Part shown: positions 1 through 15,334 of the stretch, piece by piece
Position numbering within the stretch: the stretch's first letter is position 1
Layout: every line of letters starts with the position of its first letter
Source of the DNA: Gemmatimonadota bacterium
GTDB lineage: Bacteria; GCA-2686955
DNA length: 15,557 nt
Assembly: GCA_002686955.1 (NCBI GenBank)
Contig: NYZA01000188.1
Location: 1 to 15,557 of the forward strand
Direction of reading: 5' to 3'
The notes under the pieces: generated by a model
Databases searched by the model: none
Told to the model about the DNA's origin: nothing
The model's input: only the letters and a program-made list of their open reading frames with translations
Position numbers and translations under genes: made by a program

Positions 1-78
1 GTTCGTCACGTCGCTCGGCGATTTGTCGCCTTCTACGAGCGGGTGCCGCAACTCACTGTAGATCTCATGCGCGCTCAT
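1..78 (-). CDS. actC: NrfD/ActC-type membrane quinol-binding subunit, N-terminal fragment
   Basis: The gene starts with ATG at 78-76 and runs off the left edge, so only 26 codons are visible. They contain the stretch RHPLVEGDKSPSDVT. An R-x-PLV-x-G segment followed by a D-V/I-T just ahead of the first membrane helix is typical of the N-terminus of NrfD/PsrC-family proteins, including ActC of alternative complex III. The start lies 14 bases inside the end of the upstream actB gene, which implies translational coupling. An alternative ATG at 68-66 overlaps the actB stop as ATGA but its frame hits a stop after 11 codons, so it is rejected. By family, ActC is a multi-helix integral membrane protein that binds quinol at the periplasmic face. 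None of the helices can be seen here. The assignment rests on the short motif plus position directly after actA and actB, which is the canonical gene order. Confidence 0.72.
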   Translation of the reverse strand, partial: MSAHEIYSELRHPLVEGDKSPSDVTN

Positions 79-3064
79 TTGACCCCGCTCGCTCCGTGCG
101 ATTGCGCACCTTGGCCAAGTAGCCCACGACAGGCTTGATTCCGAGCTCCTCGAGGACCGTGTAGTGGCGGGGGTCCCTCTTGAGAAGAGACAGCCGGCTC
201 TTCGGGTCGTTCATGTCGCCGAATACGATCGCGCCCGCGGGGCAAGACTGCGCGCAGGCTGGAATGATCTGCCCATCCTCGATCGCTCTGCCCCCTATCT
301 TTGCCGCCGCTTTAGTCTCCTGAATACGTTGCACGCAGAGGCTGCATTTCTCCATGACTCCGCGTGAACGAACCGTAACATCGGGGTTGAGTACCAGATT
401 CTGGAGTCTGTCCTCGCGTGGATAGTCGAACCAGTTGAATCGCCTCACCTTGTAGGGGCAGTTGTTAGCGCAGTAGCGTGTGCCCACGCAGCGGTTGTAG
501 ACCTGTTGGTTGAGACCTTCAGCGCTCTGGACGGTGGCCTGCACGGGACAGACGTTTTCGCAGGGCGCGTTGTCACAATGCTGGCACAGCATCGGCATGT
601 GCACCGCATCGACATTTTCGCCCTCTCCGCTGTAGTAGCGATCGATGCGCATCCAGTGCATCTCTCGAGAGCGGGATACCTCGTCGCGGCCGACGACCGG
701 TATGTTGTTCTCCGCTTGGCAAGAGACGACGCAGGAGGAACAACCCGTGCAGCGGCTCAGGTCGATCACCATTCCCCAGTGATGGGGGCTCTTGGGATGA
801 TCCGCGTACAGGCTGGGATGACCGTGGGCGCCGTGGTCCGATGCGGCGTGAGAGGCATGCCGCAGATTTTCGAGTGTCATCTCTCGAACGATCGGGCGCT
901 TCTCATGCCCTGCTCGGGCGAGTCCGGCGGGGACCGTGAGGGTGTGGTGCCTTTGAGTACACGCGAGCTCGCGCTTCCTGCCGGTTCGTTCGATTTTCAC
1001 GCGGCGTGCCCGAAAGGAGAGCCCAGCGGAGTGCGCGGTGATTAGTGGAGCGGCATTCGTGCCGACCCGGCCGCCAGCGTCCACGGTTGGCTTGCCCTCG
1101 AGCCACTGGGGTCCCACATCGGCGAAACGCTCCGTGCCCGCGCGGCCCCAGCCGAGGGGAATGGCGACGGTCCGCGCGTGTTGGCCCGGCTGCACGAGCG
1201 CTGGAAGTGAAAGAGTTGTGCCGGCATCATCGTGGATCTGGATCTCATCGCCGTCTTCTATGCCGAGAGCGCGAGCGGTCGAAACCGCGATCGACGCGAA
1301 GTTGTCCCAGGTGGTTTTGGCGATCGGATCCGGCAGCTCCAATAGCCATGGGTTGTGGGCGTGCCGCCCGTCGAAGAGCGTCGATGAAGGAGTGAGCTCC
1401 GCGATGAATTCGCCGGGCGCTGCTTCCTCTGAAGGATCGGGAGTGGTGACGGCCGCGGCGTCGAAGCGCGAATCTTGCTCCTCATCTGCGCCGACATCGA
1501 TCCAACCGTCGTGCAGAGCCTTGTTCCAAGAGGCCTCGAAGTCCGCGCTTCCCTTGGCTCGAGGAAAGACCATCGAGCGCCAATGAGCTCGAATCTGCTC
1601 GCGGGCCGACGCGAAGAGCCCCGACCAGGTCGCGATGCTCTCGAGCAAGGGACGTGTGTGGCCCAGGACGCGGAGCACCGGCTGGCGCAATGCCGCGATT
1701 CCGAGGATCGCTTCACTGTCGCCCCAGCTTTCGAGGAAATGGGGCTCGGGACAGACGAAATGAGCGTGCTGCGCCGTCTCGTCGATCCTGTCGGCGAAAC
1801 TGACGACCAGGCCGAGATCGTCGAGCAGGGGTGCCAATGCCTCCCCGAAGGGCAGATCGAAGACCGGATTCACACCCCGAACCAGAAGAGCATCGACCGT
1901 CCCGTCTTGGAGCTCCCGCCACAGTTCGAGCAGTTCGGCGTCGGAACCGACCCGCTGCCGAGAAGGCTGGTGAAGATCGATCGTCCCCATGTTGGAACCG
2001 GAGCCGTATGCTCCGAGCAGCTCGTTGATGTAGTTCGTCAATCGCTGAGCGACGACATCATTCTCGCCGCACAGGACCAGCGCGTGGTGATCGTGGGCTC
2101 CGAGAAGACGCCGGACAATTTCCTCGATCGTGCTTCCATCGAGGGGCGCCGAGGGCGAAGTGCTCCAGGGCGGTATCGCACCGGTATGTCGGGCCACCCG
2201 GTCGGCGAGCTGCGCCAGGATCATCGCCGCCGATCCAGGTGGAATAGGGATCCGTCGATCCGCGTTGCTCCCCGTGAGCGTCATCCGTGACTCGAGTTGG
2301 ATGTGGTGCGAGAAGGGAGTCTTGGTGCTCTCGTCCAGGCGACGGCCAGCTTGATAGGCCCGGGTGTGTTCGACCGGGGAGACCCACCCGCCGAGAAAAT
2401 CCGCTCCAATCGAAACGATGACCCGGGCGCGTTCGAGTCGGTAACGAGGCAGCACCCGGCGACCGTGGGTTTGCTCGTGCGAATCCGCGATCGCGGAGAG
2501 CGACAATGGATCGTAGGAAACGAGCCGAGAGTCGGAATAGCGCGACAAGAAACGCTCGATCGCTGCGCGTTCCGAAGGGCCGAGCGTCGAGTCGGTGAGG
2601 AAGCGAACTCTGCCCCCTTCCGACGCGAGCCGATCGAACTCCGCGGCAAGCTCCGTGTCGACGCTTAGCCAGTCACTCCGCTCACGCTTTCGAAGCGGCG
2701 CACGCAGTCGTTGTGAATCGTACAGAGAGAGCACGCTTGCTTGACCGATCGCGCAGAGTCCGCCACCCGATATCGGATGACCGGGGTTTCCCTCGAGCTT
2801 TACCGGTCGACCGTCCAGCGCCTTCGCGAGAGCGCCGCATCCCGCGGGACAGGCACCACAGACGGTTGCATACCAGTAGGCGCGTCCAGGTACGACCTCT
2901 TCGGGCGCGACCAGGTACGGAACCACTTCGCGTTCCTTCCCGCGGCTGCACCCAACCGTCGCAGTGGCTCCGATCGCGAATCCAGTCATTCGCAGGAAGT
3001 CACGCCTGTGCAAGCCCGGACCTTCGGTTGCCGTCCTGCCTGTCTTGCCACCTTGCCGCATCAT
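65..3064 (-). CDS. actB: ActB-type Tat-exported molybdopterin oxidoreductase-like / ferredoxin fusion (alternative complex III)
   Basis: A 999-residue protein. Residues 19-39 form a Tat signal (RRDFLRM, hydrophobic stretch, then Cys39 in a weak lipobox-like TVGC). A short EVVPY...PEE-VPG linker typical of ActB follows. Residues about 60-700 resemble the MopB fold and keep Cys69, 72, 76 and 104 in C-x2-C-x3-C-x27-C spacing. Residues about 755-960 are a DmsB-like ferredoxin domain with Cys772/775/778/782, 827/830/835/839, 859/865/869 and 907/910/937/941. The third set lacks one Cys (C-x5-C-x3-CP), as expected for one [3Fe-4S] beside three [4Fe-4S] clusters. In known ACIII, ActB carries electrons from ActC toward the ActA haems and its MopB part has no Mo cofactor. 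Two adjacent ATGs (3064, 3061) are possible; an AGGA sits 4 or 7 bases upstream. The gap to actA is 13 bases. A stand-alone periplasmic Mo-enzyme is less likely given the fusion and neighbours. Confidence 0.88.
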   Translation of the reverse strand: MMRQGGKTGRTATEGPGLHRRDFLRMTGFAIGATATVGCSRGKEREVVPYLVAPEEVVPGRAYWYATVCGACPAGCGALAKALDGRPVKLEGNPGHPISGGGLCAIGQASVLSLYDSQRLRAPLRKRERSDWLSVDTELAAEFDRLASEGGRVRFLTDSTLGPSERAAIERFLSRYSDSRLVSYDPLSLSAIADSHEQTHGRRVLPRYRLERARVIVSIGADFLGGWVSPVEHTRAYQAGRRLDESTKTPFSHHIQLESRMTLTGSNADRRIPIPPGSAAMILAQLADRVARHTGAIPPWSTSPSAPLDGSTIEEIVRRLLGAHDHHALVLCGENDVVAQRLTNYINELLGAYGSGSNMGTIDLHQPSRQRVGSDAELLELWRELQDGTVDALLVRGVNPVFDLPFGEALAPLLDDLGLVVSFADRIDETAQHAHFVCPEPHFLESWGDSEAILGIAALRQPVLRVLGHTRPLLESIATWSGLFASAREQIRAHWRSMVFPRAKGSADFEASWNKALHDGWIDVGADEEQDSRFDAAAVTTPDPSEEAAPGEFIAELTPSSTLFDGRHAHNPWLLELPDPIAKTTWDNFASIAVSTARALGIEDGDEIQIHDDAGTTLSLPALVQPGQHARTVAIPLGWGRAGTERFADVGPQWLEGKPTVDAGGRVGTNAAPLITAHSAGLSFRARRVKIERTGRKRELACTQRHHTLTVPAGLARAGHEKRPIVREMTLENLRHASHAASDHGAHGHPSLYADHPKSPHHWGMVIDLSRCTGCSSCVVSCQAENNIPVVGRDEVSRSREMHWMRIDRYYSGEGENVDAVHMPMLCQHCDNAPCENVCPVQATVQSAEGLNQQVYNRCVGTRYCANNCPYKVRRFNWFDYPREDRLQNLVLNPDVTVRSRGVMEKCSLCVQRIQETKAAAKIGGRAIEDGQIIPACAQSCPAGAIVFGDMNDPKSRLSLLKRDPRHYTVLEELGIKPVVGYLAKVRNRTERAGSNERA

Positions 3065-3077
3065 CTATTCCTATCGC

Positions 3078-3734
3078 TCAGTAATGGCAGGTCGCGCAGT
3101 CTAATGGTGGATCGACCGGCTTCCCCGCTTCGGTTCGCCCGGTCATCTCGCGGTGGCACTGCACGCACCAACCCATGCTGAGTGTTGCTTCCTGGCGCAC
3201 CCTATCCATGGTCTCGATCGCCCCGTGGCAGCTCTGGCACTCGATCTCCGCGGCGACATGAGGCCTGTGGTCGAAAGCCACGAAATCCGGAATACTGTGT
3301 ACTCTCTTCCAAGCGATCGGAGTGACCGCGTGCTCCGCGCTGGGCTGTAGCTCGCCATCGAGCCCCTGGGCGGAGTAGAGCTTCGCCAACTCCGCGGAAA
3401 CGATGGTCTTCGGGTTCCGTTTCTCTTCTTGAGCCCGGGCATCCTCTTCTCTTATCGCACCGATCGTCGCACTGACGAATCTATGGCAGTTCATGCAGAT
3501 GCTCGCCGAGGGGATTCCCGCTCTTCGGCTCTTCTCGGCTCCACCGTGGCAGTACAGACAGGGGATCGCGAGCTCACCGGCATGCAGTCGATGGGAATAC
3601 GCGATCGGCTGCACCGGTTGGTAGCCTCGATCGATCCCGACCAGGGGCACCTTGCTCACGGAGCGCGTCAACGAAGCCCCGGCAAGCACGATGCCCAACA
3701 GGAGGAGCGTCGAGAAGAGGCGAGCCTTCATCAT
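3078..3734 (-). CDS. actA: ActA-type pentahaem cytochrome c
   Basis: A 218-residue protein with an N-terminal hydrophobic segment (about residues 7-22) that is a signal anchor or cleavable leader. It carries five CxxCH haem c motifs at residues 59-63, 80-84, 166-170, 190-194 and 213-217. The blocks PIAYSHRLH ahead of the first haem, RRAGIPSASICMNCH at the second and FVAFDHRPH ahead of the third match the layout of ActA of alternative complex III, and their extra histidines could supply distal haem ligands. The chain ends one residue after the fifth motif, so no C-terminal domain is present. The start ATG overlaps the narI stop as ATGA, with an AGGGG six bases upstream; a second ATG follows directly. 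In ACIII this subunit passes electrons from ActB to a soluble or membrane cytochrome c. A generic NrfB/cytochrome c7-type multihaem is possible, but actB and actC follow immediately. Confidence 0.9.
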   Translation of the reverse strand: MMKARLFSTLLLLGIVLAGASLTRSVSKVPLVGIDRGYQPVQPIAYSHRLHAGELAIPCLYCHGGAEKSRRAGIPSASICMNCHRFVSATIGAIREEDARAQEEKRNPKTIVSAELAKLYSAQGLDGELQPSAEHAVTPIAWKRVHSIPDFVAFDHRPHVAAEIECQSCHGAIETMDRVRQEATLSMGWCVQCHREMTGRTEAGKPVDPPLDCATCHY

Positions 3735-4435
3735 CTAGAACCCCTGAATCCGTACCAACGGACCATTTGGGCGCGTCGCCACAGGTACTGATTCGGAATC
3801 ACCAGCACGTGCACGAGCCGGGTGAATGGGAAGAAGGCGATCATGAGGAACGCGGATACGATGTGGAGCTTCGCTAGCAAGGGCAGTCCGACGATGAAGG
3901 CCCAATCCGGTTGGAACTTCACGAGCGACCAGAGATAGGGCGAGACCGCCGCCGCAAACCAAGAGGATCCCCAACCAACAAACACCGCGATCAGCACGCC
4001 GGTCGAGACCTGAAAGAGCAACATGGCGAAGAGAACCCAGTCCGATGCCGTCGTAACGCCTCTGACACGGGTGTCCTTGGATCGGCGAATGAGAGCCATG
4101 ACGAGTCCGACGGCCGTAAGAAGGCCACAAATCAGAGCGCTGACCTCCAGCACGTAGAGTCGGATTGGGACGCCGTTCCATGCCAGTATCGCTCGAGGGA
4201 TCGCGAAGGCGACGATATGTCCCGCAAGTACCGTCAGCAGGCCGTAATGGAATGGGACCATGGCCCAGAAATGTTGGCGGTTTTCGAGGAACTGGGATGA
4301 AAGTGTGGAGTAGGTGAACGTGTCCTGCCGATAGCGCTGAATCGTCACGATCAGGAAGATCGTGAGCGACAGATAGGGCAGCGCGCCGAATAGGAAGACA
4401 TCGAGGTAGTTCAGAAAACCGCTACTCAGTTCCAT
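3731..4435 (-). CDS. narI: Respiratory nitrate reductase gamma subunit (cytochrome b)
   Basis: A 234-residue, five-helix membrane protein of the NarI family, close to the usual 225-240 residues. The four haem b histidines are at family spacing: His63 and His73 (ten apart) in the second helix region, and His191 and His209 (eighteen apart) in the last helix, inside KLHIV and FTRLVH blocks. The conserved RVRxxTT loop between helices is also present (RVRGVTTASDW). NarI anchors NarGH to the inner face of the membrane, oxidises quinol near the periplasmic face and passes electrons inward through its two haems to NarH. The gene begins 14 bases inside narJ, with GGAAGG upstream, and its stop overlaps the actA start. 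I see no missing ligand, so quinol-linked function should be intact. In systems with a NarC cytochrome, NarI may also exchange electrons with that cytochrome; this is inference here. Confidence 0.96.
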   Translation of the reverse strand: MELSSGFLNYLDVFLFGALPYLSLTIFLIVTIQRYRQDTFTYSTLSSQFLENRQHFWAMVPFHYGLLTVLAGHIVAFAIPRAILAWNGVPIRLYVLEVSALICGLLTAVGLVMALIRRSKDTRVRGVTTASDWVLFAMLLFQVSTGVLIAVFVGWGSSWFAAAVSPYLWSLVKFQPDWAFIVGLPLLAKLHIVSAFLMIAFFPFTRLVHVLVIPNQYLWRRAQMVRWYGFRGSR

Positions 4436-5090
4436 GGTCGACCTTCCGTTCAGAACCGTTTGGACCGTGCAAGCAGGGACCGTCGACGGGCGGCGGGGTT
4501 GGACAGCCCGAAGCGGTGAGTTCCGTCACCGAACCGGGCGGTGCGCTACGTCTCTTCTGAGGTTCGATCTCAATCGCATCATGCTCGTCGTTCACGATGT
4601 CTCGCGTGATTTGCAGGAGCGCCTCATATGGGCATTCCTTGTCGACGACCGCTTCGAGCATCTTTCGGAGTGCGGGGAGTACGTAGCGACCGGCAATGCC
4701 GTTCGCAAGCTCTGGCTCGGCTCTACCCAAGAGACGAAGGACATGTGTCAGGTGATCGGGTAGCTCGGTGATCTCTGGGATCTCATGGCGGCGGAGCTCC
4801 TTGCGCAAGTTGACCAACAGAGCGCCGCGCGCGTATTCCTCTCCGTAGACGTGCCAACCCACCTCGAGGGCACAGACGGGATTGATCTCGAAGCTGCGAG
4901 TAAACATCTCTTCGACTTCGCCCGGGGTCATTCGCGTTGCTCGTTCCTCGATGTCGCGAAGGGCGTCGCCTCGCCCCGGAGAGCGGGAGTCCGCGATAGA
5001 GCGACAAAGCGCCACCCGCTCGGCGAAGTCTCCCCGGGGGTACTCGTAGAGCGCAGCCAGAGCATCGAAGAGGGCGAGTTTGCTTTCCAT
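4422..5090 (-). CDS. narJ: Nitrate reductase assembly chaperone (NarJ/TorD family)
   Basis: A 222-residue protein of the NarJ/DmsD/TorD fold. Recognisable blocks are the N-terminal LALFDALAALYEYP and the central FEINPVCALEVGWHVYGEEY-ARG segment, which is characteristic of NarJ. NarJ is a cytoplasmic, system-specific chaperone that binds apo-NarG, allows molybdenum cofactor insertion and holds back membrane attachment until maturation; it is not part of the final enzyme. I take the ATG at 5090, two bases after the narH stop. A GTG at 5093 would overlap that stop by one base and add one residue. The 3' end overlaps narI by 14 bases. The C-terminal 30 or so residues are Pro/Gly rich and look disordered. 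Position between narH and narI is standard for nar operons. Confidence 0.93.
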   Translation of the reverse strand: MESKLALFDALAALYEYPRGDFAERVALCRSIADSRSPGRGDALRDIEERATRMTPGEVEEMFTRSFEINPVCALEVGWHVYGEEYARGALLVNLRKELRRHEIPEITELPDHLTHVLRLLGRAEPELANGIAGRYVLPALRKMLEAVVDKECPYEALLQITRDIVNDEHDAIEIEPQKRRSAPPGSVTELTASGCPTPPPVDGPCLHGPNGSERKVDHGTE

Positions 5091-5092
5091 CA

Positions 5093-6577
5093 CTATCCTC
5101 GCTGCGGTCCGCGCAGGAAACCGAAGCCCACGGCCTGTTTGTGCTCGAGGGGATCGTTGATCATCTCGATCGCCTGTTCACGCTGGGACGGCGCGAAGAC
5201 GAAACGATCCTTGAGGTTGGCGATCGTGCTCAGGCGGTAGATCGCTTCAGCCTCTTCGGCCGTGCAATCCGCTTCGCGCAAGACCCGATCAGCGGTCTCC
5301 TGCGTGATATCGCCGACCGTTGCCGCGCGACGGTAGTGGCGTACGGCCATCAACTTGCGCAGGGAGTAACTGACCACGCCCGTGTTGCCCGCCCCCAATA
5401 GATTGCCGAGGTACTCGACGGGGACCCTGGCCTTGTCGATGGCATGGAAGAAGTCGTCGGAGTCGGTGGAAATGGTGCCCTCTTCTTGGCTGCTCGTCAC
5501 GGGCAACAAGGGCGGCACGTAGAAGAGCATCGGGAGTGTTCTGAACTCGAGGTGCGGGGGCAACGCGAGGCCCCATTCCTTCACGAACTTGTAGACGGGT
5601 GAGCGGAGGGCGGCATCGAGGATGGCGTCCGAGATTCCCTGCTTGCGGGCCTGGTGCTGCACTTCGGGGTCACGAGGATCGAGAATCATCGATCGATGCG
5701 CTTCGACGAGTCCCGTGTTGTCGGTCATCGCCACATCGTGGATGCGATCCGCGTCATAGAGCAACACGCCCAGATAGCGGATGCGCCCCACGCAGGAGTG
5801 GAAGCAGGCCGGTGCCTGACCCGTCTCTACCCTCGGGAAGCAGAGGATGCACTTCTCCGATTTTCCGGTCTGCCAGTTGAAGTAGCTTTTCTTGTATGGG
5901 CAAGCTGATACGCAAGAACGCCACGCGCGACAGACTTTTTGATCGATGAGGACAATGCCATCTTCGCCGCGTTTGTAGAGTGCGCCGGAGGGGCACGACG
6001 CAACACATGCCGGATTGAGACAGTGATTACAGATGCGGGGGAAATAGAAGAAGACGAGTCGTTCGATCGCGGATAGCTGCGCTCGTTGCTCCTGTGAGAG
6101 GGCGACCAGATTGGGATCGTTCTCCGCATAGATCGGCGAACCGCTGAGGTCGTCGTCCCAATTGGGACCCGATTCGATGTCGATGTACCGTCCATCGATC
6201 ATCGAGATCGGCCTGGCAGTGGGTTGATCGTCCCCCTCCGGCGCGTTGAAAAGGTTTTGGTAGTCGTATGTCCACGGCTCGTAGTAGTCATCGAGGCTGG
6301 GCATCGAAGGATTATGGAAAATGTTCGGTACGATTCTGGCCCGACCAGTGGAGCGCAGGCTCAGATTGCCATCACGCGTCCAGCCTCCGCGGTACTTCTC
6401 CTGGTCCTCCCACTTAGTCGGGTACCCAGTGCCGGGCTTCGTCTCGACGTTGTTCCACCACATGTACTCAGTGCCCTTGCGGTCGGTCCACACATTCTTG
6501 CAGGCGATGCTGCAGGTATGACAGCCGATGCACTTGTCCAGGTGGAAGACCATGGAAACTTGTGAGCGAACGTCCAT
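5093..6577 (-). CDS. narH: Respiratory nitrate reductase beta subunit (iron-sulfur electron transfer)
   Basis: A 494-residue NarH. The start chosen is the ATG at 6577, giving MDVRSQVS-MVFHLDKCIGC, the usual NarH N-terminus, with an AGGAAGGA seven bases upstream. A longer reading from 6634 would add 19 atypical residues inside narG and is rejected. Cys16, 19, 22 and 26 open the first cluster motif. Further motifs are CNHCLNPACVASCP, C-RAW-RSC-VSAC-P and CILC...CFHSC. In the third motif Trp replaces a Cys (CxxWxxCxxxCP), the mark of the [3Fe-4S] cluster in NarH, so three [4Fe-4S] and one [3Fe-4S] are expected. The protein carries electrons from NarI haems to NarG in the cytoplasm. The LGVLLYDADRI block after the last Cys pair is also typical. 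The gene lies 19 bases downstream of narG. Confidence 0.96.
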   Translation of the reverse strand: MDVRSQVSMVFHLDKCIGCHTCSIACKNVWTDRKGTEYMWWNNVETKPGTGYPTKWEDQEKYRGGWTRDGNLSLRSTGRARIVPNIFHNPSMPSLDDYYEPWTYDYQNLFNAPEGDDQPTARPISMIDGRYIDIESGPNWDDDLSGSPIYAENDPNLVALSQEQRAQLSAIERLVFFYFPRICNHCLNPACVASCPSGALYKRGEDGIVLIDQKVCRAWRSCVSACPYKKSYFNWQTGKSEKCILCFPRVETGQAPACFHSCVGRIRYLGVLLYDADRIHDVAMTDNTGLVEAHRSMILDPRDPEVQHQARKQGISDAILDAALRSPVYKFVKEWGLALPPHLEFRTLPMLFYVPPLLPVTSSQEEGTISTDSDDFFHAIDKARVPVEYLGNLLGAGNTGVVSYSLRKLMAVRHYRRAATVGDITQETADRVLREADCTAEEAEAIYRLSTIANLKDRFVFAPSQREQAIEMINDPLEHKQAVGFGFLRGPQRG

Positions 6578-6584
6578 GACTTGG

Positions 6585-6592
6585 TCCTTCCT
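6585..6592 (-). promoter_or_regulatory. Ribosome binding site of narH (decides the start)
   Basis: On the minus strand the sequence AGGAAGGA lies seven bases before the ATG at 6577 and inside the 19-base gap after the narG stop (6597-6599). It supports the shorter narH start over in-frame upstream ATG codons that fall inside narG and lack such a site. Confidence 0.75.
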
Positions 6593-6596
6593 GCTC

Positions 6597-9500
6597 TTAC
6601 CAGCGGAGCTCGGGCAGCCTGCGCACATACACATGCGTATCGCGGTTGCAGCCGATCGGACCCCAGTAGTTGAAGTGATAGGTGAACTGCCCGTAGCCGC
6701 CGATCATGAGATTCGGTTTGAGCCGGGTTCGCGTGAGGCTGTTGTGGCCACCGCCGCGGCGGTTGCCCCTTAGCGGCGATTTCGGAACTCCGTAAGTCCG
6801 CTCAGGAGAGTGGTAGATGATGCAGATGCCTCGGGGAATCCGTGCACTCACACAGGCCCGCGTGACGACAACACCATGATCATTGTGGACCTCTACCCAG
6901 TCGTTGTCGGCGATCTCGATCTGAGCGGCATCTTTGTCGTTCATCCAGAAGGGCTCACACCCGCGCGACAAAGTCGTCATACGCTGATTGTCCCCGTAGG
7001 TCGAGTGGATATGCCACTTGCCGTGGGGTGTGAGGTAATTGAGCATCATCGTCTTCCCGACAGCATCGGAGACACGAAGATCCGAATACTGGTGCGGTGT
7101 CGGCTTTGGTTTGTAGGTGGGTAGGTGTTCGCCAAACTGCAGGTAGCCAGGATGGTCGAGATAGAAATGCTGGCGGCCGGTCAGCGTGCGCCAAGGAACG
7201 AGGTGATCGTGGTTGTATGTGTAGGGGGAATAGGCGCGCCCGTACTCGATCAACCCCGACCACATCGGGCTGCTGAGGTATCTGTGGGGGCGTGTTTGGA
7301 GGTCCTCGTAGGTCATTCGAACAGAGCGGGATTTCTCCGCGATGTGCGCGAGCGGGAGACCGGTTCGCTCTTCCATGTTCTTGTAGGAGCGGTAGGCGAG
7401 CTCACCGTTCGAAACCGTCGCCAACCGAAGAACCGCATTGCAGACATCGACATCCTGCTCGATCGAGGGGTAGGTTGCACCCTCCCATGTCGTCGAGGCG
7501 CGTGTTGTGAGCTCATCGTAGAACTCATCGCATTTGTAGTGGGTGCCGTGCGCCCCGATTCCCTTGTCGCGAACCAGAGGTCCCAGCGAAGTATACTGTC
7601 GATAAAGGTTCTTGTAGTCCCGGCTCACGACCTTCAGGTTTGGCATCGTCTTGCCGGGAATCGCTTCGATCTCGTCCTTGGACCAGTCGCGAATCTGCGG
7701 TTGAGCGATCTCAGCCGGCGTGTCGTGCGCCAATGGCATCGCGACCAGATCGTCCACCTTCTCGGGGAAATGCCTCTCAGCCATCTTCGAGAATCGCTCG
7801 GCTACGGCACGGAAGATGCCCCAGTCGCTCTTCGATTCCCAGCAGGGCGGAACCGCTTCAGAGAGAGGGTGCACGAAGCTGTGCATATCGGTGGAGTTGA
7901 GATCGGCCTTTTCGTACCAGGTGGCCGCCGGCAAAACGACGTCGGAATACAAGGCCGACGTATCCATCCGGAAATTCAGGTCGACGACCAGATCCATCTT
8001 GCCCTCGGGGGCGATGTCGCGGTACGTGATTTCGGTGACCGAATCACCGGCTATTTCGTCCGCGATTTCGTTGTGATGCGTCCCCAAGTAGTGTTTCAGG
8101 AAGTACTCATGCCCTTTGGAGCTCGACATCAATGCGTTTCCGCGCCAGATGAACCAGACTCGGGGCCAGCTTTCGGGGGCGTCGGGGTCTTCGACCGCGA
8201 ACTTGAGATCGCCGCTCTTGATACGTGAGAGCGCGTGCTCGACGACTGCATCGTTGTCGGCTGCTCCATCCGCTTTGGCCTTCTCTACGATCTCTAGGCT
8301 GTTCTCCGTGAATTGGGGATAGAAGGGCAGCCAGCCGTTCTTTACCGCTCGCACCTGCACGTCCATGGTGTGTCCCTGCGCGAGGGAGCCTTCTTTCTGG
8401 TTCGGCGGAACAGTGTGGTAGTCGGTGAACGACTTCTCGTATCGCCACTGGTCGGTGTGCACATAGTGCCAGCTCGGTGCATTCTGCAAGCGGGCGGTGG
8501 GAAACCAGTCTTTGCCAAGCGCGATCGCTCCCCATGATTCCGCCGGCGCCAGCTTCTCCTGACCGACGTAGTGGGCCAGTCCTCCACCGTTCTTGCCGAT
8601 GCATCCGCATAGCATCAAAGCGTGGATGCCGGCCCGATACATCAAGTTGGCGTGGTACCAGTGATTGATACCGGCCCCTATGATGATCGTACACTTGCCA
8701 CCGGTGTGCTCGGCGGTGCTCGCCCACTCGCGGGCGAACTGAATCAGGTCCTTTCGGCCCAAGCCGGTGAAGCGTTCCTGCCACGCGGGTGTGTAGGGGG
8801 CGTCTTCGTCGTCATAGCTGGCGGCGTACGCGCCCGGCAGCCCACGGGGGACGCCGTACTGCGCCATCAAGAGATCGTATGTTGTCGTGACGACAACCTC
8901 TTTGCCTTCGGCCGTCTTCAACTTGCGTGCGGGGACACCCCTCTCGATCGCTCGGGCCTCGGCGAAGTCGTCGAACTCCACCATCACGGTATCGCCGGCA
9001 CCATTCAGGAAGCTCAAAACCGGATCGATCGCCGAGCCGTCGGTGATGTCTTCCAGCTTCAGATTCCAATGCCCCTTGTTCTGCTCCGCCCAGCGGGAGC
9101 CCACGGCTCCACTCGGAAGCTTCGGCCGGTCATCCGCCGTATCCCAGAATAGGAATTGCCAGTCGCCGTTCTCGACATCGGAGTAGTGCTCGAGCCGGTT
9201 CGCCCGAAGTAGTTGCCCAGGCCGTACCTTGCCGTCTTCTTCGACCAACTCGACCAGGTGGGGAGCATCACTGTACTGCTTCAGGTAATCCTGAAACGCA
9301 CCGATCGCTCGGTCGTGGTGGAACTCCTTCAGAATCACATGGTTCACCGCCATCCACCAGGCTCCATCCTGCCCGGCGTTGACTCGCAGCCAAGTGTCGG
9401 CGTACTTGGAAACCTGACTGAAGTCGGGCGCGAACACGTACATCTTCGTGCCGTTGTGACGCGCTTCGGCCGCGAAGTGACAGTCCGGAGTTCGGGTCAT

Positions 9501-10232
9501 GTTGAGATTCGACCCCATGACCGCGAGCAGTTTCGCGTTGTACCAGTCCGCGGACTCGTTCACATCGGTCTGCTCCCCCCATGTTTCGGGTGAGGCCGAT
9601 GGAAGATCGCAGTACCAATCGTAGAAAGAGAGAGCGACGCCGCCCATCAACTGCAGCATCCGGGCGCCCGATGCGTAGCTGATCATCGACATCGCGGGGA
9701 TCGGTGAAAAGCCGGCGATGCGGTCCGGGCCGTGCGTCTTGATCGTATGGATCATCGATGCGCAGATCAGCTCGAGGGCTTCGTCCCAACTCGCGCGCCG
9801 GAATCCACCCTTGCCCCTGGCTCTGAGCCACCGCGCTCGAGCACTATCGTCGCTCACGAGTGAGCGCCATGCCTCGACGGGGTCTTCGTGGGCGGCGCGG
9901 GCCGTGCGCCAGAGATCGACCAAGGCGCCGCGGATGTAGGGGTACTTCACTCGTAGGGGGCTGTAGAGGTACCAGGAGTATGAGATGCCCCGCTGGCATC
10001 CGCGCGGCTCGTACGGTGGGATCTCGGGATCGATCTCGGGATAGTCGAGTCCCTGCATTTCCCAGGTTACGATGCCGTCTTTTACATGAATCTGCCATGT
10101 GCAGCCGCCGGTGCAGTTCACTCCGTGAGTGCTGCGCACTGTCTTGTCGTACTGCCAACGGTTGCGGTAGAACTCCTCCCACGAGCGTGCGTGGGGATCG
10201 ACGTTGTCTTGGATCCAGAGTTTGTCGCTCAT
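6597..10232 (-). CDS. narG: Respiratory nitrate reductase alpha subunit (Mo-bisMGD catalytic subunit), NarG/NxrA family
   Basis: A 1211-residue protein, near the 1200-1250 usual for NarG. His36, Cys40, Cys44 and Cys79 (HGVNCTGGC ... RGCQRG) form the H-x3-C-x3-C-x34-C site of the FS0 cluster. Asp209 in FYDWYCDLP sits at the position of the molybdenum-ligating Asp of the E. coli enzyme, judged by equal spacing from the FS0 His. [34 protein letters not shown] and the C-terminal [14 protein letters not shown] block are family signatures. No twin-arginine signal is present, so the active site is inferred to face the cytoplasm. It reduces nitrate to nitrite with electrons from NarH. Remembered sequences of Thermus NarG and Nitrobacter-type NxrA share the [10 protein letters not shown] and YEPRGCQRG style, so nitrite oxidation cannot be excluded. 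The start overlaps the end of the cytochrome gene as ATGA. Confidence 0.97.
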
Positions 10233-11107
10233 TGTTGCTTAGCCTCCACTCCGTCGGAGCTTGCCGCGACGAGCGCCTTGCGCACACCGGTGAAGCGTCC
10301 CTTCCACATCAAGTCGAAGATCATCAAGGCGGCGGCCGTGCCCGATAGTCCGAGAAGGATGAAGATCAGTGTGGCCGCTTGGCTGCTTTCTGGTGGGTCT
10401 TGCGCGATATCAGAGAAGTAGGCGAGGAGCGGAAGAATCTCCTTGTCGCCATCTAGGGGATGAGGTGCGAAGATCGACTGCATCGTGGTCGTCGCCGGCG
10501 CCGCAAGCCAAGTTCCCAGACCCTTGCGACCGTTCAGCCGTCCATAGACATCGCTCAGCTCCGGACCCAGTCCTCCGCCCGCCAGCACTCCGATCCCGCT
10601 GACCGAGTGGCAAGATACGCAGGCCGCTCCCCCATTCTTCAGGGGCTGAGTGCCGAGAAAGATCTCTCGTCCGAGTCGCACATCGTCTTCAGTGAAGGGG
10701 CGATCGCTCATCTGGATGCCGGCGAACTTCGATTTCTCCAACGCCGACTCGGCTTCGATGAGTTCGAGCAGCGCTTTCGCGCGATCCAGCGTCATACCCG
10801 CGATCGCGGGCATCACGACTCCGCGGGCTTCGTTCCGTAGTTTGAGGGCGTACGCATCACCGCTGTCGATGACGGTCGCCGGCTCGACGATGAAGCGGGC
10901 CAACCACGCCCGGTCCTTTCGTTGCGACACATCTTTCAGATCGGGACCCGTCAGGCGGCCACCACCGATTGTGTGGCAGCTCATGCAGTTGGCCTCGAAA
11001 TCCGAAATAGGATCCTCGGCCCTCGCGTGGGAAAGCGTCGGCAGCGCCATCGCGAGCAGTGCGGGAGCTGCCCGTCGAACGACAGTTGCGACTCGCTGGA
11101 TTCTCAT
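10229..11107 (-). CDS. Membrane-anchored dihaem cytochrome c, NarC-like
   Basis: A 292-residue protein with an N-terminal signal sequence (about residues 1-30, ending in an Ala-rich cleavage region), two CxxCH haem c motifs at residues 41-45 and 163-167, and one C-terminal membrane helix (about 244-266) followed by a short basic tail. Each haem half is a class I cytochrome c domain; Met99 and Met209 are plausible sixth ligands. The haem domains would lie in the periplasm. It is the first gene of the nar operon and overlaps narG by four bases. Dihaem cytochromes called NarC precede narG in Thermus, and a cytochrome c gene precedes the nxr genes of Nitrobacter, in both cases linking the enzyme to a cytochrome c pool. 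I infer the same role but leave the symbol blank since homology to NarC is judged from architecture and position only. A GAGGAG lies six bases before the ATG. Confidence 0.88.
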
Positions 11108-11368: not shown

Positions 11369-12787
11369 CTACCGATCTTCGACGAACTCGTTCCGATCGA
11401 GATCGAGGGTGCGCATTATCCGTTGAAACGCCGCCCGCGTAAGGCCGCACAACTCGGCGGCCCGGGTTACGTTGCCGGCCGTTACCCGCAATGAGCGCTC
11501 TGCGATTCGGCGCTGGAAGGCCTGCAATACCTGCTGCTTGCCGTCTTCATAGGAGAGGCCTTCCGCATCGACCGTGAACCATGGGTCGCTCTCATCGCTC
11601 AGGCGGAGATGTTGTGTGCGGATCGTCTCGCCCCTCGCCAAGACCACGGCCCGTCGGATGCTGTTCTCGAGCTCCCGCGCGTTGCCGGGCCAGTCGTGGG
11701 CGCGGAGCGCATCGAGCGCTCCTTCACTCAAGTCCCCGGCGTCTCGGGCATCGGTGGAGTAGAGGCTCAGGAAATGATCGGCGAGGGGGACGATGTCGCC
11801 GGGGCGGTCCTTCAGCGGAGGCACATCGAGCGTTACCACGCGAAGGCGGAAGTAGAGGTCTTTGCGAAACGCCTTCTCCGCGATCCGCTCATGTAGATGC
11901 TGGTCGGTGGCGGCCACGATCCTGAACTCGACCGGTTCGGGCGTCGTCGAGCCCAAGGGGATCGCGCACTCTTCCTGCAATGCCTGCAGCAACTTCCCCT
12001 GCGCGAGTGGGGGCAATGCAGTGATCCTGTCCAGATAGACCGTGCCTCCTGTCGCCCGTGCCAAGACCCCCTTTCGATCTTCATTCGCGCCCGGCAAGGC
12101 TCCGGCGACATGGCCGAAGAGCTCCGATTCGATCGCCGACTCGCTGAGCGCGGCGAGCCGAACATGGGTAAAAGGCAGCGAGGGATCGCGGCTGCTCTCA
12201 TGTATGAGCCTTGCAACCAGAGACTTGCCGGATCCACTCTCGCCGCGGATCAGCACCGGCATGCTCGTCGGGCCGATCTGTCGAGCCAGTTCCAAGACCT
12301 CGACCATGCTCGGGTCTTCGGCGATGATCCGAGAGGGCTCGCCTTCTCCCGCGGTGTTCATTCGGCGCACCCGCTCCGCGACAAGTGCGTCACAACCGTG
12401 TCGAGCGACTTCTTCCAGAATCTCGCGGTTGTCGAAGGGCTTGGTGATGAAGTGCGCGGCCCCGCGCCGCATCGCCTCTACCGCCAGCTCGATCGTGCCG
12501 TACCCGGTGATCATCAGCACTTGGATCTCAGGGCGATCTCGGCGCACGCGCTCGAGCAGCTCCATGCCGCTCATTTCGCCCATCGTCACGTCGGAAAGCA
12601 GGAGATGAGGTGCCCATCCCCGCAACACTTCTATCGCCATCTCGGCGCTGGCTGCCTCTCGAACCTCCGCTCCGAGGCTCGTGACCAGAAGTCGCAGTCC
12701 GAGGCGCACATCGGCTTCGTCGTCGACGATGAGCACGCGAAGCTGCTCGAATCCTCGCTCGACCGAACATTCCTTAAGCCGGCTCAT
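11369..12787 (-). CDS. NtrC-architecture response regulator with degenerate AAA+ motifs
   Basis: A 472-residue protein with three parts. Residues 16-128 are a receiver with Asp22/Asp23, phosphoacceptor Asp66, Thr94 and Lys116 all present. Residues about 150-385 are an AAA+ domain aligned with the sigma54-activator family: Walker A GESGSGKS (182-189), ESELFGH (221-226 region), FRKDLYFRL with arginine-finger region, and PPLKDRPGDI. The C-terminus is a Fis-type helix-turn-helix (GNVTRAAELCGLTRAAFQRI). Two key motifs are altered: GAFTGA reads GALPGA (229-234), and the Walker B acidic pair DE reads DR (Asp253-Arg254). It therefore probably cannot drive sigma54 polymerase by the usual mechanism and may act as a phosphorylation-controlled DNA-binding protein. 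The gene overlaps its kinase by ATGA and faces the nar operon in the same direction, so that operon and its own promoter are the likely targets. Confidence 0.92.
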   Translation of the reverse strand: MSRLKECSVERGFEQLRVLIVDDEADVRLGLRLLVTSLGAEVREAASAEMAIEVLRGWAPHLLLSDVTMGEMSGMELLERVRRDRPEIQVLMITGYGTIELAVEAMRRGAAHFITKPFDNREILEEVARHGCDALVAERVRRMNTAGEGEPSRIIAEDPSMVEVLELARQIGPTSMPVLIRGESGSGKSLVARLIHESSRDPSLPFTHVRLAALSESAIESELFGHVAGALPGANEDRKGVLARATGGTVYLDRITALPPLAQGKLLQALQEECAIPLGSTTPEPVEFRIVAATDQHLHERIAEKAFRKDLYFRLRVVTLDVPPLKDRPGDIVPLADHFLSLYSTDARDAGDLSEGALDALRAHDWPGNARELENSIRRAVVLARGETIRTQHLRLSDESDPWFTVDAEGLSYEDGKQQVLQAFQRRIAERSLRVTAGNVTRAAELCGLTRAAFQRIMRTLDLDRNEFVEDR

Positions 12788-14946
12788 GACCCGTGCTCCT
12801 TCGTCATCCCCAAAGCCTGCGGTATGAGCAATTCGAACATCGTTCCCTTTTCGGCGGATCCAAGAGTGAGTCGCCCGCCCTGGGCCGAGGCGATCCTACG
12901 CGAGGTCGGCAACCCCAGCCCGGTTCCCTCCCCGGCCGGTTTCGTGGTGAAGAAAGGCTCGAAAACATGATCCCTCAGCTTCTCCGGAATCCCAGGGCCG
13001 TTGTCGCGGACTCGAAGCAGGACCCCGTCCGCTCGGTCCGCGATTTCGATCGTCACGATGCCGTCTTCGATCTCCGACAGAGCTTGAATGGCGTTCATCA
13101 CGAGGTTGACGAGCGCTTGCCGTAGCTGCAACTCGTCTCCATTGGCGCTTCCAACCGCCCCAGCCCCTTCTACTAGCAACATAGTTCCCCCGCGCTCGGC
13201 GATCGGTCGCAGAAGCTCGACCACGTCCTCGACGAGATCCCGCGGATCGAAGTCCGCCTTTTCAAGCGACGAAGTGGTCGCCATATCGAGGAGCGAGCGG
13301 ATCGTTCTCTTGCAGCTCAACGTGTTTCTGTGAACGACTTCCGCGTGTGTGCGAAGCGGAGAAGATGCCTCGAGCCCGTCGATGAGCATCTGGCTAAACA
13401 TCGAAATGGCCGCGAGGGGGTTGTTCATCTCATGGGCCATTACAGCCGCAACCTCCCCGAGCACCGACATTCGTTCCTGATGTGATTGCTGCTCCGCCTG
13501 GCGCAATCGCTCGGTGACATTGCGGCTGACGAGAATCCTCCCGATCTCAACCCCTTGTGGATCGCTGAGCGGGGTCGCTTGAATGTCGTAGACGTTTGTG
13601 CCGATCGTCACTACACAGCCCTTGGCCGGTCGGGCGAATTGCGCCAGACAATCTAGACAGCTTCCCTCGCTCCTCTCTCCTCGTCGACATTCCCCTGGTG
13701 CCACACTACCGTGACGCCGCCCGAGCTCAGCGAGTACTTCCCGCGCGGCGGCGTTCGCGAGTGTCACTCGACTTCGATTGTCGAGTATGAAGAGCCCGTC
13801 CTCCATCGAGTGAATCACTGTATTCAATCGATCTCGCTCGAAGCGTATCTCCGCCTCTCGATACTCGAGATCCTGAGCCGCCCGTGCCAGCCGATGTGTT
13901 CTCTCTTGAATCGCGCCCGCCATCACATCGAAAGCCTGAGAGAGATGCCCGACCTCGTCATTCGATCGATACCCGACTCGGGCCGAGAAATCGCCGTCGG
14001 TGATTCTCCGCGCGGCGCTTTCGAGCTCGGCCAAAGGCTTCAGCAAGAACTGTCGCGAAGGAAGGAGCAGAAGTGCCGCCAACACAACCAATGTGATGCC
14101 TACATAAATAAAGGTCGACACCAGAGTGCGGATAGGTAAAGAAAGGGCGCTTGAGTCGACCGACAGATCGACGGCCCAGCCGGTGCGGGCATTGGTGCTC
14201 GAAAAAGCCAGGGCCGCGCCGGGATTAGCGATATCCGGCATCGAGCCAGGTCCACCGCCCGGGTCGCTGGGAATCAAGGGCAGCCGGTAGCCGTCCCTGC
14301 CACTTAGGCCCAGGCGAATCTCCTCCAGCGGGGAGCGCGCCAGGCTCTTCCGCAGACGGTTGGCCCAGAGGTCGGCACGCACCAAGATCTGCAAGAAGCC
14401 CAGCAGGCGCGTGCCATCGATCGCGGTCAGCGGGGTGGAGAGCACGAAGCTGGGAAAAGGGCAATCGCCGTCGGGTGGGACCAGAGGGCCGAACCACAAG
14501 CCATCCCGGCTGAACCCCTCCGGCGGAGCCGCGGCCCGCGCGTAAGCCCGGACCACCTCTTCCCCCTCTCGTCCCAAAACACGCGCATCGACGAACTCGG
14601 GGACCAGTGGCAGCTTGTTCGTCCGCAGGTGTCTGATCAGCTCGCGGCGAGCGGCCTCCCTCTCCACGGTCGGTGCATCTTGCGCGCGCTGCAATTCGAG
14701 CCGTATATGCCCGTCCGACGCGAAATCCTCCACGCGCCGTCCCAAGAGCTCGAGGCTCCGGTCGATCGCCAGCTGCGTGTTGGCGGCCTGGTCGTCGAGG
14801 CGAAGTCTGATCTGACGTTCCAGCGCGTCGCGGGCCGTGGTGGTTACGACATATCCTCCGAGCCCGAACGCCACGACGCACAGAAACGCGAAAGTCAGCG
14901 GGAGCTTGTACCGCACCGGCATGAGCGTGAGGGGGTCTCGGATCAT
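12784..14946 (-). CDS. Membrane histidine kinase: dCache-like sensor, HAMP, Cys-bearing PAS, HisKA-HATPase
   Basis: A 720-residue sensor kinase using the ATG at 14946, which has GGAGAGG four bases upstream; the first in-frame ATG at 14994 lies inside a repeat and lacks a good site. Order: membrane helix (about 15-35), extracytoplasmic sensor of about 240 residues (dCache-like), second helix (274-296), HAMP (297-349, PLAELESAARRITDGDF), PAS (about 370-480) holding Cys420, 430, 433 and 444, then HisKA with His505 in MAHEMNNPL, N-box Asn618 region (NLVMNAIQAL), G1 DNGPGIP, F-box FEPFFTTK and G2 GTGLGLP. This is the NtrB-like kinase class that pairs with NtrC-type regulators. It is inferred to phosphorylate Asp66 of the regulator encoded next. 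The signal is unknown: a periplasmic ligand such as nitrate or nitrite, or redox through the PAS cysteines, are both possible. Confidence 0.93.
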   Translation of the reverse strand: MIRDPLTLMPVRYKLPLTFAFLCVVAFGLGGYVVTTTARDALERQIRLRLDDQAANTQLAIDRSLELLGRRVEDFASDGHIRLELQRAQDAPTVEREAARRELIRHLRTNKLPLVPEFVDARVLGREGEEVVRAYARAAAPPEGFSRDGLWFGPLVPPDGDCPFPSFVLSTPLTAIDGTRLLGFLQILVRADLWANRLRKSLARSPLEEIRLGLSGRDGYRLPLIPSDPGGGPGSMPDIANPGAALAFSSTNARTGWAVDLSVDSSALSLPIRTLVSTFIYVGITLVVLAALLLLPSRQFLLKPLAELESAARRITDGDFSARVGYRSNDEVGHLSQAFDVMAGAIQERTHRLARAAQDLEYREAEIRFERDRLNTVIHSMEDGLFILDNRSRVTLANAAAREVLAELGRRHGSVAPGECRRGERSEGSCLDCLAQFARPAKGCVVTIGTNVYDIQATPLSDPQGVEIGRILVSRNVTERLRQAEQQSHQERMSVLGEVAAVMAHEMNNPLAAISMFSQMLIDGLEASSPLRTHAEVVHRNTLSCKRTIRSLLDMATTSSLEKADFDPRDLVEDVVELLRPIAERGGTMLLVEGAGAVGSANGDELQLRQALVNLVMNAIQALSEIEDGIVTIEIADRADGVLLRVRDNGPGIPEKLRDHVFEPFFTTKPAGEGTGLGLPTSRRIASAQGGRLTLGSAEKGTMFELLIPQALGMTKEHGS

Positions 14947-14950
14947 CGAT

Positions 14951-14957
14951 CCTCTCC
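14951..14957 (-). promoter_or_regulatory. Ribosome binding site of the histidine kinase (decides the start)
   Basis: GGAGAGG on the minus strand lies four bases before the ATG at 14946. The upstream in-frame ATG at 14994 has only a poor CAGGG-type match and sits within the left arm of the inverted repeat, so the shorter protein is preferred. Confidence 0.65.
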
Positions 14958-14978
14958 AGGGCGCGATTGTTGCAAAGG

Positions 14979-15334
14979 TACGTAACGCTATCATGCGCCC
15001 TGACGTTTAGACATAAGGGTGAGATCCTCGGGGGGACTGCGCACTGGCGAGCGGGCAGCCGTCCTTCTCAGCCAGGCAAGCCCGTTCCCTCGTTGGGGAC
15101 CCGGCGAACGGGGCGCGGGCTGAGAGCGTCCCTTTGCGGCTTTGACTCCGGGCGGGGCGCATCGCGCCGCGGCGTTTCGGGAGCAAGCAGTGCGGGAAGT
15201 TCGGGGGAGTGGAGCGGTGAGGTTTGCCTGGGAAGGAAGGGCGACGCTCGGCGAATCAGTGCTCGGTCCTCCCGAGAATTCCCTATATCGAAACGTCAGA
15301 GAAGACAGGGGCATGATTGCGGGAGGGTTGCGTA
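14979..15334. repeat. Long imperfect inverted repeat, MITE-like, gene-free
   Basis: The left arm (14979-15082) and right arm (15221-15334) are reverse complements in ordered blocks. From the outside in: TACGTAA at 14979 against TACGCAA; CGCTATCATGC at 14986 against CGCAATCATGC; TGACGTTT at 15001-15008 against its perfect complement at 15291-15298; a 20-base block at 15027-15046 matching 17 of 20 with 15257-15276; and CCAGGCAAGCC at 15072-15082 matching 10 of 11 with 15221-15231. A spacer of about 138 bases separates the arms. Open frames exist on both strands but their Arg/Ser/Pro-rich products mirror the repeat and look non-coding. No transposase or clear target duplication is visible. It may be a non-autonomous element, two converging copies of a dispersed repeat, or a structured transcript end for the gene to its right. 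Confidence 0.7.
15066..15125. other. Nested stem-loop inside the repeat element
   Basis: TCTCAGCC (15066-15073) pairs perfectly with GGCTGAGA (15118-15125), and inside it CCCGTTC (15081-15087) pairs perfectly with GAACGGG (15106-15112). Together they form a two-storey hairpin with an 18-base apical loop. No T-tract follows on either strand, so it is not a standard intrinsic terminator. It could be a folded RNA element or a DNA cruciform that is part of the repeat. Confidence 0.5.

Follow-up and report, generated by a model that had tools for sequence, protein, structure and literature searches.

What is an alternative complex III (ACIII) doing in a string of nitrate reductase genes? The question is raised by a 15,557-nucleotide stretch of a Gemmatimonadota contig, analysed here as a whole and called the window, in which narC, narG, narH, narJ, narI, actA, actB and the 5' start of actC follow one another on the minus strand with overlaps or with gaps of at most 19 bases. 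This tightly packed order on a single strand had been proposed in an earlier sequence-only reading of the DNA, and the minus-strand open reading frames and family matches bear it out:

12784-14994, minus strand: membrane sensor histidine kinase (HAMP, PAS, HisKA), with a homologous kinase-regulator pair in relatives
11369-12787, minus strand: NtrC-type sigma-54-dependent response regulator
10229-11107, minus strand: narC, dihaem cytochrome c with two CxxCH motifs and a membrane helix at the C terminus
6597-10232, minus strand: narG, Mo-bisPGD nitrate reductase alpha subunit (TIGR01580)
5093-6577, minus strand: narH, FeS beta subunit (TIGR01660 and the starts of relatives)
4422-5093, minus strand: narJ chaperone (TIGR00684, position and homologues)
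3731-4435, minus strand: narI, di-haem b membrane subunit (TIGR00351)
3078-3734, minus strand: actA, pentahaem cytochrome c (best match 6BTM ActA)
65-3064, minus strand: actB, a fusion of a Tat-type, molybdopterin-like B1 domain and a B2 domain that has all the cysteines for four FeS clusters
2753-2860, minus strand: extra N-terminal [4Fe-4S] (FS0-type) cysteines of ActB, Cys69, Cys72, Cys76 and Cys104 (PF04879)
1-78, minus strand: actC, first 26 codons, ended by the contig end

The narC and narG genes (11107-10229 and 10232-6597) overlap by 4 bases. The listed reading frame of narH begins at 6634; moving its start to MDVRSQ (6577), after the starts of its relatives, leaves a gap of 19 bases behind narG. 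The narJ gene, starting at 5093 or 5090 and ending at 4422, overlaps narI by 14 bases, the narI stop shares the four bases ATGA with the actA start, 13 bases separate actA from actB, and actB overlaps actC, which begins at 78, by 14 bases. The genes are presumably co-transcribed. For actC, the earlier reading holds as far as its beginning behind actB; the contig ends inside the gene after 78 bases. The assembly has four other NrfD genes, none of which fits as the continuation of actC; relatives carry a complete actC-D-E-F at the corresponding place. An assembly chimera at the narI/actA junction, a concern of the earlier reading, is ruled out by identical junctions in independent genomes.

In about a dozen relatives, too, the arrangement includes the regulator pair (11369-14994 in the window), with homologues of both genes directly upstream of narC. 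A search for sigma-54 promoters that might serve the NtrC-type regulator gave 13 matches against 12.3 expected, and scans for sigma-70-type promoters and terminators did no better than on shuffled sequence.

The nitrate reductase is of a familiar kind. NarG (TIGR01580, 1470 bits against a cut-off of 1084), NarH (TIGR01660, 652.7 against 524) and NarI all exceed the curated NCBIfam cut-offs, and NarI retains its four haem histidines, which together place the enzyme in the NarGHI family; NarJ scores 57.9 bits with TIGR00684, slightly under the cut-off of 59.35. The first gene of the operon encodes a dihaem, membrane-anchored NarC, as in the Thermus-type NarCGHI, and exactly two CxxCH motifs are found in NarC in 73/73 relatives. 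Among the plasmid-borne records searched, the closest kin of NarG is the Thermus enzyme (61%).

The act genes encode an ACIII. ActA has five CxxCH motifs and matches ActA of the Flavobacterium johnsoniae ACIII (6BTM) best, with an E value of 3.8e-46; a scan of viral contigs for ActA gave no match. ActB is a fusion of QrcB-like and QrcC-like parts that aligns over nearly its whole length with solved ACIII chains, its best solved relatives all being ACIII ActB (6F0K, 6LOD, 6BTM, 8K9E), and alignment with 6F0K reveals one [3Fe-4S] and three [4Fe-4S] cysteine sets in B2, with every B2 cysteine conserved. The B1 domain has, in addition, an FS0-type C-x2-C-x3-C-x27-C motif that scores above the Pfam PF04879 cut-off. 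This extra [4Fe-4S] motif occurs in 46 of the 47 nar-linked ActB sequences aligned; the solved ACIII in the alignment lack it, as do nearly all oxidase-linked ActB copies. The B1 domain here would thus not be cofactor-less as in Rhodothermus marinus, a property of solved ACIII members rather than part of the family definition. We also considered a molybdenum ligand in B1, and set it aside, as conserved residues nearby, Asp185 for example, are matched by acidic residues in other ActB and nothing specific was found. A published account of nar genes followed by a six-gene NrfD cluster tentatively read that cluster as an NrfAH-like nitrite reductase (PMC10732223). The act block does adjoin nar genes and does combine a multihaem cytochrome with an NrfD-type subunit, but it lacks an NrfA-type catalytic cytochrome, its ActA and ActB match their solved ACIII counterparts, and relatives carry actE, actF and ActD (PF11821, a family named as ACIII-specific), so that a new nitrite reductase is very improbable.

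The sequence-only reading had suggested looking for the same order in other genomes, and it is far from absent there: of the 52 nearest nar loci whose sequence continues for 4.5 kb or more beyond narI, 46 have actAB there, either directly behind narI or after narK transporters, which lie inside many of these operons. The carriers include Acidobacteriota, Planctomycetota, KSB1, Elusimicrobiota, Ignavibacteriota/Chlorobiota and Calditrichota; one of them, Bythopirellula polymerisocia Pla144 (L109), is in culture. A search begun from ActB, in an evenly drawn sample of Acidobacteriota, gave a nar-type ActB in 35 of 396 genomes, with narI or narK directly upstream at 28/30 loci. NarG was present in 29 of 32 genomes with nar-type ActB (one of the 29 by a distant, partial match of 38% only) and in 2 of 48 without it (Fisher p 4e-16). 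Three Acidobacteriota genomes (G233, G328 and G520) have nar-type ActB without NarG, and in another, G301, a narI with its four haem histidines stands directly before actA where narCGHJ are gone. The nar-act order is thus far beyond chance.

The phylogeny of ActB follows the same division. In a first tree, which contained one misframed row (L096), nar-linked ActB was split from 42 other ActB sequences with an SH-aLRT of 99. In a wider tree an aerobic-type ActB (L007), which has a fused six-haem ActA like that of Flavobacterium, joins the nar-linked clade (branch support 100), so strict single-clade status, which holds in the first tree, is broken there. With this one exception nar-linked ActB forms a clade of its own and is co-inherited with NarG: distances for the two proteins correlate with r = 0.73, and the maximum in permutations was 0.23. 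We conclude, with a probability above 0.9, that the nar-act genes constitute a nitrate-dedicated ACIII unit. Because this unit is real, has been kept over at least six phyla, is co-inherited and contains a nar-specific ACIII clade, a joint chain, as the earlier reading proposed, is likely; the electron path through it can only be put conditionally.

We suggest that the locus is one nitrate-respiration operon that joins a Thermus-type four-subunit NarCGHI to its own ACIII clade. Most likely, ACIII would oxidise menaquinol on the outer side of the membrane and couple this to proton pumping; electrons would pass from ActA through ActE to the dihaem NarC, then to the two NarI haems, NarH and NarG, and so to nitrate inside the cell. 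More energy would then be conserved per electron pair than by Nar alone as a quinol oxidase. We put the whole path from menaquinol through ACIII and cytochromes c to NarC/NarI and nitrate somewhat below an even chance, and rank it first among the options of the sequence-only reading. The overlapping genes, including narI/actA, and the isolated narI-actA pair of G301 speak for it. A more ambitious version, which we hold only tentatively, is a nitrate respirasome in which an anaerobic ACIII subfamily passes electrons straight on to NarC/NarI within a single membrane assembly. Its extra FeS cluster would lengthen a [4Fe-4S] wire, and nitrate reduction would gain redox-driven proton pumping, in several phyla whose members are mostly uncultured.

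NarI itself gives reason for caution. Loss of its quinol site, had it occurred, might have served as proof of feeding by ACIII; instead all haem ligands and the basic quinol-site residue (Arg for Lys86) are kept in 61/61 relatives, with or without act genes, and the key residues of NarI and NarC are unchanged at six nar loci that belong to the same NarG clade and lack act downstream. NarI may therefore be an ordinary quinol oxidase. It can probably still oxidise menaquinol itself, so that the ACIII route may be optional, and the six act-less loci and the three genomes with nar-type ActB but no NarG likewise count against the path. The same residues favour a doubtful though possible alternative, in which ACIII is co-regulated with Nar but supplies a periplasmic pool of cytochrome c that serves reductases of nitrite, NO or N2O or, at low oxygen, oxidases, Nar oxidising menaquinol alone. 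Acceptors for such a pool exist: at least one match to NirK, NirS, NrfA or NosZ was found in 23 of 44 genomes with nar-type ACIII, about half, and at least one COX1-family match in 44/44. These matches are scattered, however (over cut-off, NirK in 2/50, NirS in 1/50, NrfA in 11/50 and NosZ in 12/50), and family searches, on which all gene absences in these incomplete MAGs rest, recognised none of the four reductases in 21 of the 44, the window's genome among them, which weakens supply of downstream NO and N2O steps by ACIII. The oxidases, moreover, usually accompany a second, caa3-linked ACIII often present in the same genomes, whose full-length copies are only 36-41% like the window's and usually lie 6-9 kb from a COX1 gene. 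A Rieske/cytochrome b complex and an aa3 oxidase are encoded separately in the window's own genome. Oxygen reductase genes did not follow act in the 20 nar-linked relatives read, whose clusters end in actF (the window ends in actC). In the Elusimicrobiota genome G101, a nar-ACIII carrier, family searches found no oxidase, bc1, NirK, NirS, NrfA or NosZ, and a quinol-type NO reductase alone among the acceptors sought, which argues for the path to nitrate.

Two further arrangements would use NarC differently. In a Thermus-like branch, NarI would pass electrons from quinol outwards to NarC, and one periplasmic cytochrome pool would be served by NarC and ACIII together, as a double quinol-to-cytochrome station in use once nitrate is exhausted. 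The Thermus kinship of NarG and the constancy of NarC fit this arrangement, as does T. thermophilus, which represses complex III and needs NarC to grow on nitrite or NO (PMC7694296). But in Thermus NarC reportedly takes the place of complex III, which would make an ACIII beside it redundant, and about half of the genomes lack periplasmic acceptors; we regard the branch as unlikely. Less probable again is a nitrite oxidoreductase that passes nitrite electrons to NarC, with ACIII in reverse reducing quinone for biosynthesis. The direction of Nar/Nxr enzymes cannot be read from sequence, and the NxrA of Nitrobacter, Nitrococcus and Nitrolancea fall in the same large NarG clade (PMC10732223), yet the nearest NarG among the plasmid records is from a nitrate-reducing Thermus enzyme, many operons contain narK, and some carriers, such as G101, have no detected oxidase to take nitrite electrons.

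The nitrate-dedicated ACIII unit has implications for how ACIII evolution is read. One published account confines ActB to aerobic respiration and uses the rise of oxygen to date it (PMC10100899); a widespread nar-tied clade, whose cluster motif is absent from most oxidase-linked copies, speaks against an exclusively aerobic ActB and changes the possible reading of that history. If electrons do pass from ACIII to Nar, models underestimate the energy that Acidobacteriota, Planctomycetota and related bacteria of soil, sediment and groundwater gain from respiring nitrate, and the pairing across phyla suggests more energy from nitrate than in textbook nitrate reducers. The role of the ACIII [4Fe-4S] wire, unexplained by the R. 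marinus structure (PMC5928083), becomes testable.

The gene order, for which the sequence-only reading named no described system, has in fact been reported once, from 13 cases in Planctomycetota/KSB1 MAGs (PMC10732223). The arrangement there is identical, and MAGs of its OFTM series are among our loci (OFTM153 as L047, OFTM341 as L063), but that work did not assign the cluster to ACIII or describe the clade, the extra cluster or the dedication to nar. The solved ACIII of R. marinus (6F0K), F. johnsoniae (6BTM) and Roseiflexus (6LOD/8K9E) likewise have a pentahaem ActA, a fused ActB with the four-cluster FeS set and ActC, together with the ActD, monohaem ActE and ActF found in relatives of the window's locus. 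The nar-type, in contrast, is a separate clade linked to nar rather than caa3, and carries an extra [4Fe-4S] cysteine motif in B1, which in R. marinus holds no prosthetic group (PMC5928083). The narCGHJIKT operon of Thermus thermophilus shares the dihaem NarC as fourth subunit, the gene order, the regulators upstream and, with many relatives here, narK after narI; it has no act genes, and complex III is repressed under these conditions (PMC7694296). Thermus NarC interacts with NarI, which favours the path to nitrate put forward here; the proposal that it drains electrons from Nar counts against that path (PMC7694296). Streptomyces coelicolor Nar1 provides the precedent for an ACIII that feeds Nar: it depends on and co-purifies with bcc-aa3, and this cytoplasmic-facing Nar is proposed to be fed by complex III via a dihaem cytochrome c, with electrons diverted into NarI and 4 H+ moved instead of 2 (PMC7931247), although its partner is bcc and not ACIII. 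The parts of the nar-act unit are thus already known, and their combination is a variant.

The tight, single-strand order narC-G-H-J-I-actA-actB claimed in the sequence-only reading is borne out by ORF coordinates: neighbouring genes overlap by 4 or 14 bases or are at most 19 bases apart, and the ATGA common to narI and actA does lie at 3731-3734. The claimed actC is likewise present after actB, but only its first 26 codons fall within the window, which makes up one entire contig (C188; 15,557 bases) of a 4.28-Mb genome (84.5% complete, 270 contigs).

Minus strand: narC, narG, narH, narJ, narI, actA, actB and the first 26 codons of actC (ORF reading of the window)
Upstream of narC: sensor kinase and NtrC-type regulator (family matches)

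NarG, NarH and NarI exceed curated NCBIfam cut-offs, with NarJ slightly below. ActA carries five CxxCH motifs, and ActB is a fusion of a molybdopterin-like domain and a multi-cluster ferredoxin domain whose best solved relatives are the ActB chains of alternative complex III (ACIII).

This gene order is conserved. A NarG scan of one genome per species retained the 80 nearest loci (70-80% identity), 52 of which extend at least 4.5 kb beyond narI; in 46 of these 52, actA and actB follow on the narI strand, either directly or after one or two additional genes that match the NarK family. By record name the carriers are Acidobacteriota, Planctomycetota, KSB1, Elusimicrobiota, Ignavibacteriota/Chlorobiota and Calditrichota, together with one MAG labelled Ectothiorhodospiraceae, and about 12 relatives have a kinase-regulator pair homologous to that of the window before narC. 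The six loci with no act genes downstream are L054, L062, L067, L070, L114 and L119; the L119 genome does encode a nar-type ActB, on a different contig, where it lies at the edge.

To remove the bias of starting from NarG, we searched in reverse from ActB in 396 evenly drawn Acidobacteriota genomes and found a nar-type ActB (E ≤1e-200) in 35. Either narI or narK directly precedes actA in 28 of the 30 such loci read. We found NarG in 29 of 32 genomes with nar-type ActB, counting a distant 38% partial match in G301, versus 2 of 48 without (p 4e-16). The exceptions are instructive. In G233 and G328 a nar-type act cluster (L191, L192) lies away from any nar gene, and no NarG was found in either genome. 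At the G301 locus (L194, 10977-18813), narI is followed directly by actABCDEF and narCGHJ are absent; its NarI retains all four haem histidines, and a NarI-ACIII partnership without nitrate reductase is possible there.

The nar-linked ActB proteins form a separate clade. Across 44 genomes they are 45-61% identical to ours; second full-length copies from the same genomes are 36-41% identical, usually with an oxidase subunit I gene 6-9 kb away. In a tree of 89 ActB, one misframed row included, a branch with an SH-aLRT of 99 sets all 47 nar-linked sequences apart from the others. In a wider tree one aerobic-type ActB, whose partner ActA is fused as in Flavobacterium, groups with them, and the enlarged group separates from the rest with support of 100. 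NarG and ActB distances are correlated (r 0.73; permutation maximum 0.23), and the planctomycetotal locus L072 groups with Acidobacteriota in both proteins, as expected if nar-act is transferred as a unit. Acquisition of the window nar-act genes from outside is plausible, because G001, of the same family, has only a non-nar-type ActB and no NarG was found in it. At least 98% of the nar-linked sequences share a short GPxW stretch (window 1103-1114, ActB residues 651-654) that has almost no counterpart in other ActB and may mark a contact surface.

Cys69, Cys72, Cys76 and Cys104 of window ActB constitute the N-terminal [4Fe-4S] motif of molybdo-enzymes, matching Pfam PF04879 above cut-off. Of the 47 nar-linked ActB, 46 have these cysteines, which are missing from 18 of 19 second copies; PF04879 matches 4/4 nar-linked relatives tested versus 0/4 oxidase-linked ActB without the motif. 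R. marinus ActB lacks them in alignment with ours, and its B1 domain showed no prosthetic group (PMC5928083). Since the motif is shared by ten deep ActB sequences from other lineages and by one Ignavibacteria copy linked to an oxidase, the predicted cluster site is probably ancestral and lost in most oxidase-linked ACIII. That Ignavibacteria copy (L121 6135-17000, G102) belongs to a deep-branching ACIII, and its ActB has a clear molybdopterin-domain match (PF00384, 43.9 bits).

In 20 nar-linked relatives read further, the act cluster ends actC, actD, actE, actF (the simple gene caller missed a few short genes), followed in some by narK, transporter or Moco genes and in none by oxidase genes. 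Elsewhere, the window genome codes for an aa3 oxidase and a Rieske/split cytochrome b complex, with which its aerobic chain could run without ACIII. It also holds a very divergent haem-copper oxidase family protein (L202 8550-10876, minus strand, contig C93; 461 aa, weak COX1 match, no NCBIfam match) adjoining a dihaem cytochrome c, and further NrfD-type modules: a DsrMKJOP-like set, an FeS-NrfD fusion neighbouring a molybdo-enzyme, and a NarI-like protein adjoining a truncated NrfD gene (L001, L003, L004).

The nar-linked ACIII might instead supply cytochrome c to other acceptors, a reading we rank second and hold to be rather unlikely. Periplasmic N-oxide reductases are patchy in 50 genomes (NirK above cut-off in 2, NirS 1, NrfA 11, NosZ 12), and 21 of 44 nar-type ACIII genomes, including that of the window, have none of the four, in a count that leaves octahaem/HAO-type enzymes aside and draws on incomplete MAGs. 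The elusimicrobial genome G101 combines nar-ACIII with a quinol-type NO reductase, assigned by eye from sequence features with no NCBIfam match, and no other recognised cytochrome c acceptor was found in it. Directly upstream of its narCGHJI-act genes lies a Qrc-like module of a five-haem cytochrome, QrcB-like, QrcC-like and membrane subunits (L206 2666-10497).

The gene order of the nar-linked ACIII unit, which the sequence-only reading did not place among described systems, is already in print for 13 Planctomycetota and KSB1 MAG cases, whose authors tentatively interpreted the act block as either an NrfAH-like nitrite reductase or a component of the respiratory chain (PMC10732223), but we found no description of a nar-dedicated ACIII clade, its extra cluster motif or its phylum spread in the open-licence literature searched. 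In another paper (PMC10100899), ActB is described as taking part solely in aerobic respiration.

The four NarI haem histidines are retained in all relatives (one gap) and Lys86 is replaced by Arg in 61/61, so that, judging from these residues, Nar could still oxidise quinol directly. Every NarC has two haems (73/73). The NarC of Thermus interacts with NarI, and its proposed role is to lead electrons away from Nar (PMC7694296); a similar outward branch here ranks third and seems improbable. With the Streptomyces system described next as precedent, we rank first, at a probability of roughly 0.45, a path in which electrons would pass from menaquinol through ACIII, NarC and NarI to nitrate. Streptomyces Nar1 requires an active bcc-aa3 complex, with which it co-purifies, and its authors propose that a dihaem cytochrome c donates to NarI, so that 4 rather than 2 H+ would be moved per electron pair (PMC7931247). 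The window-type nar-act operon would be the ACIII counterpart of that system.
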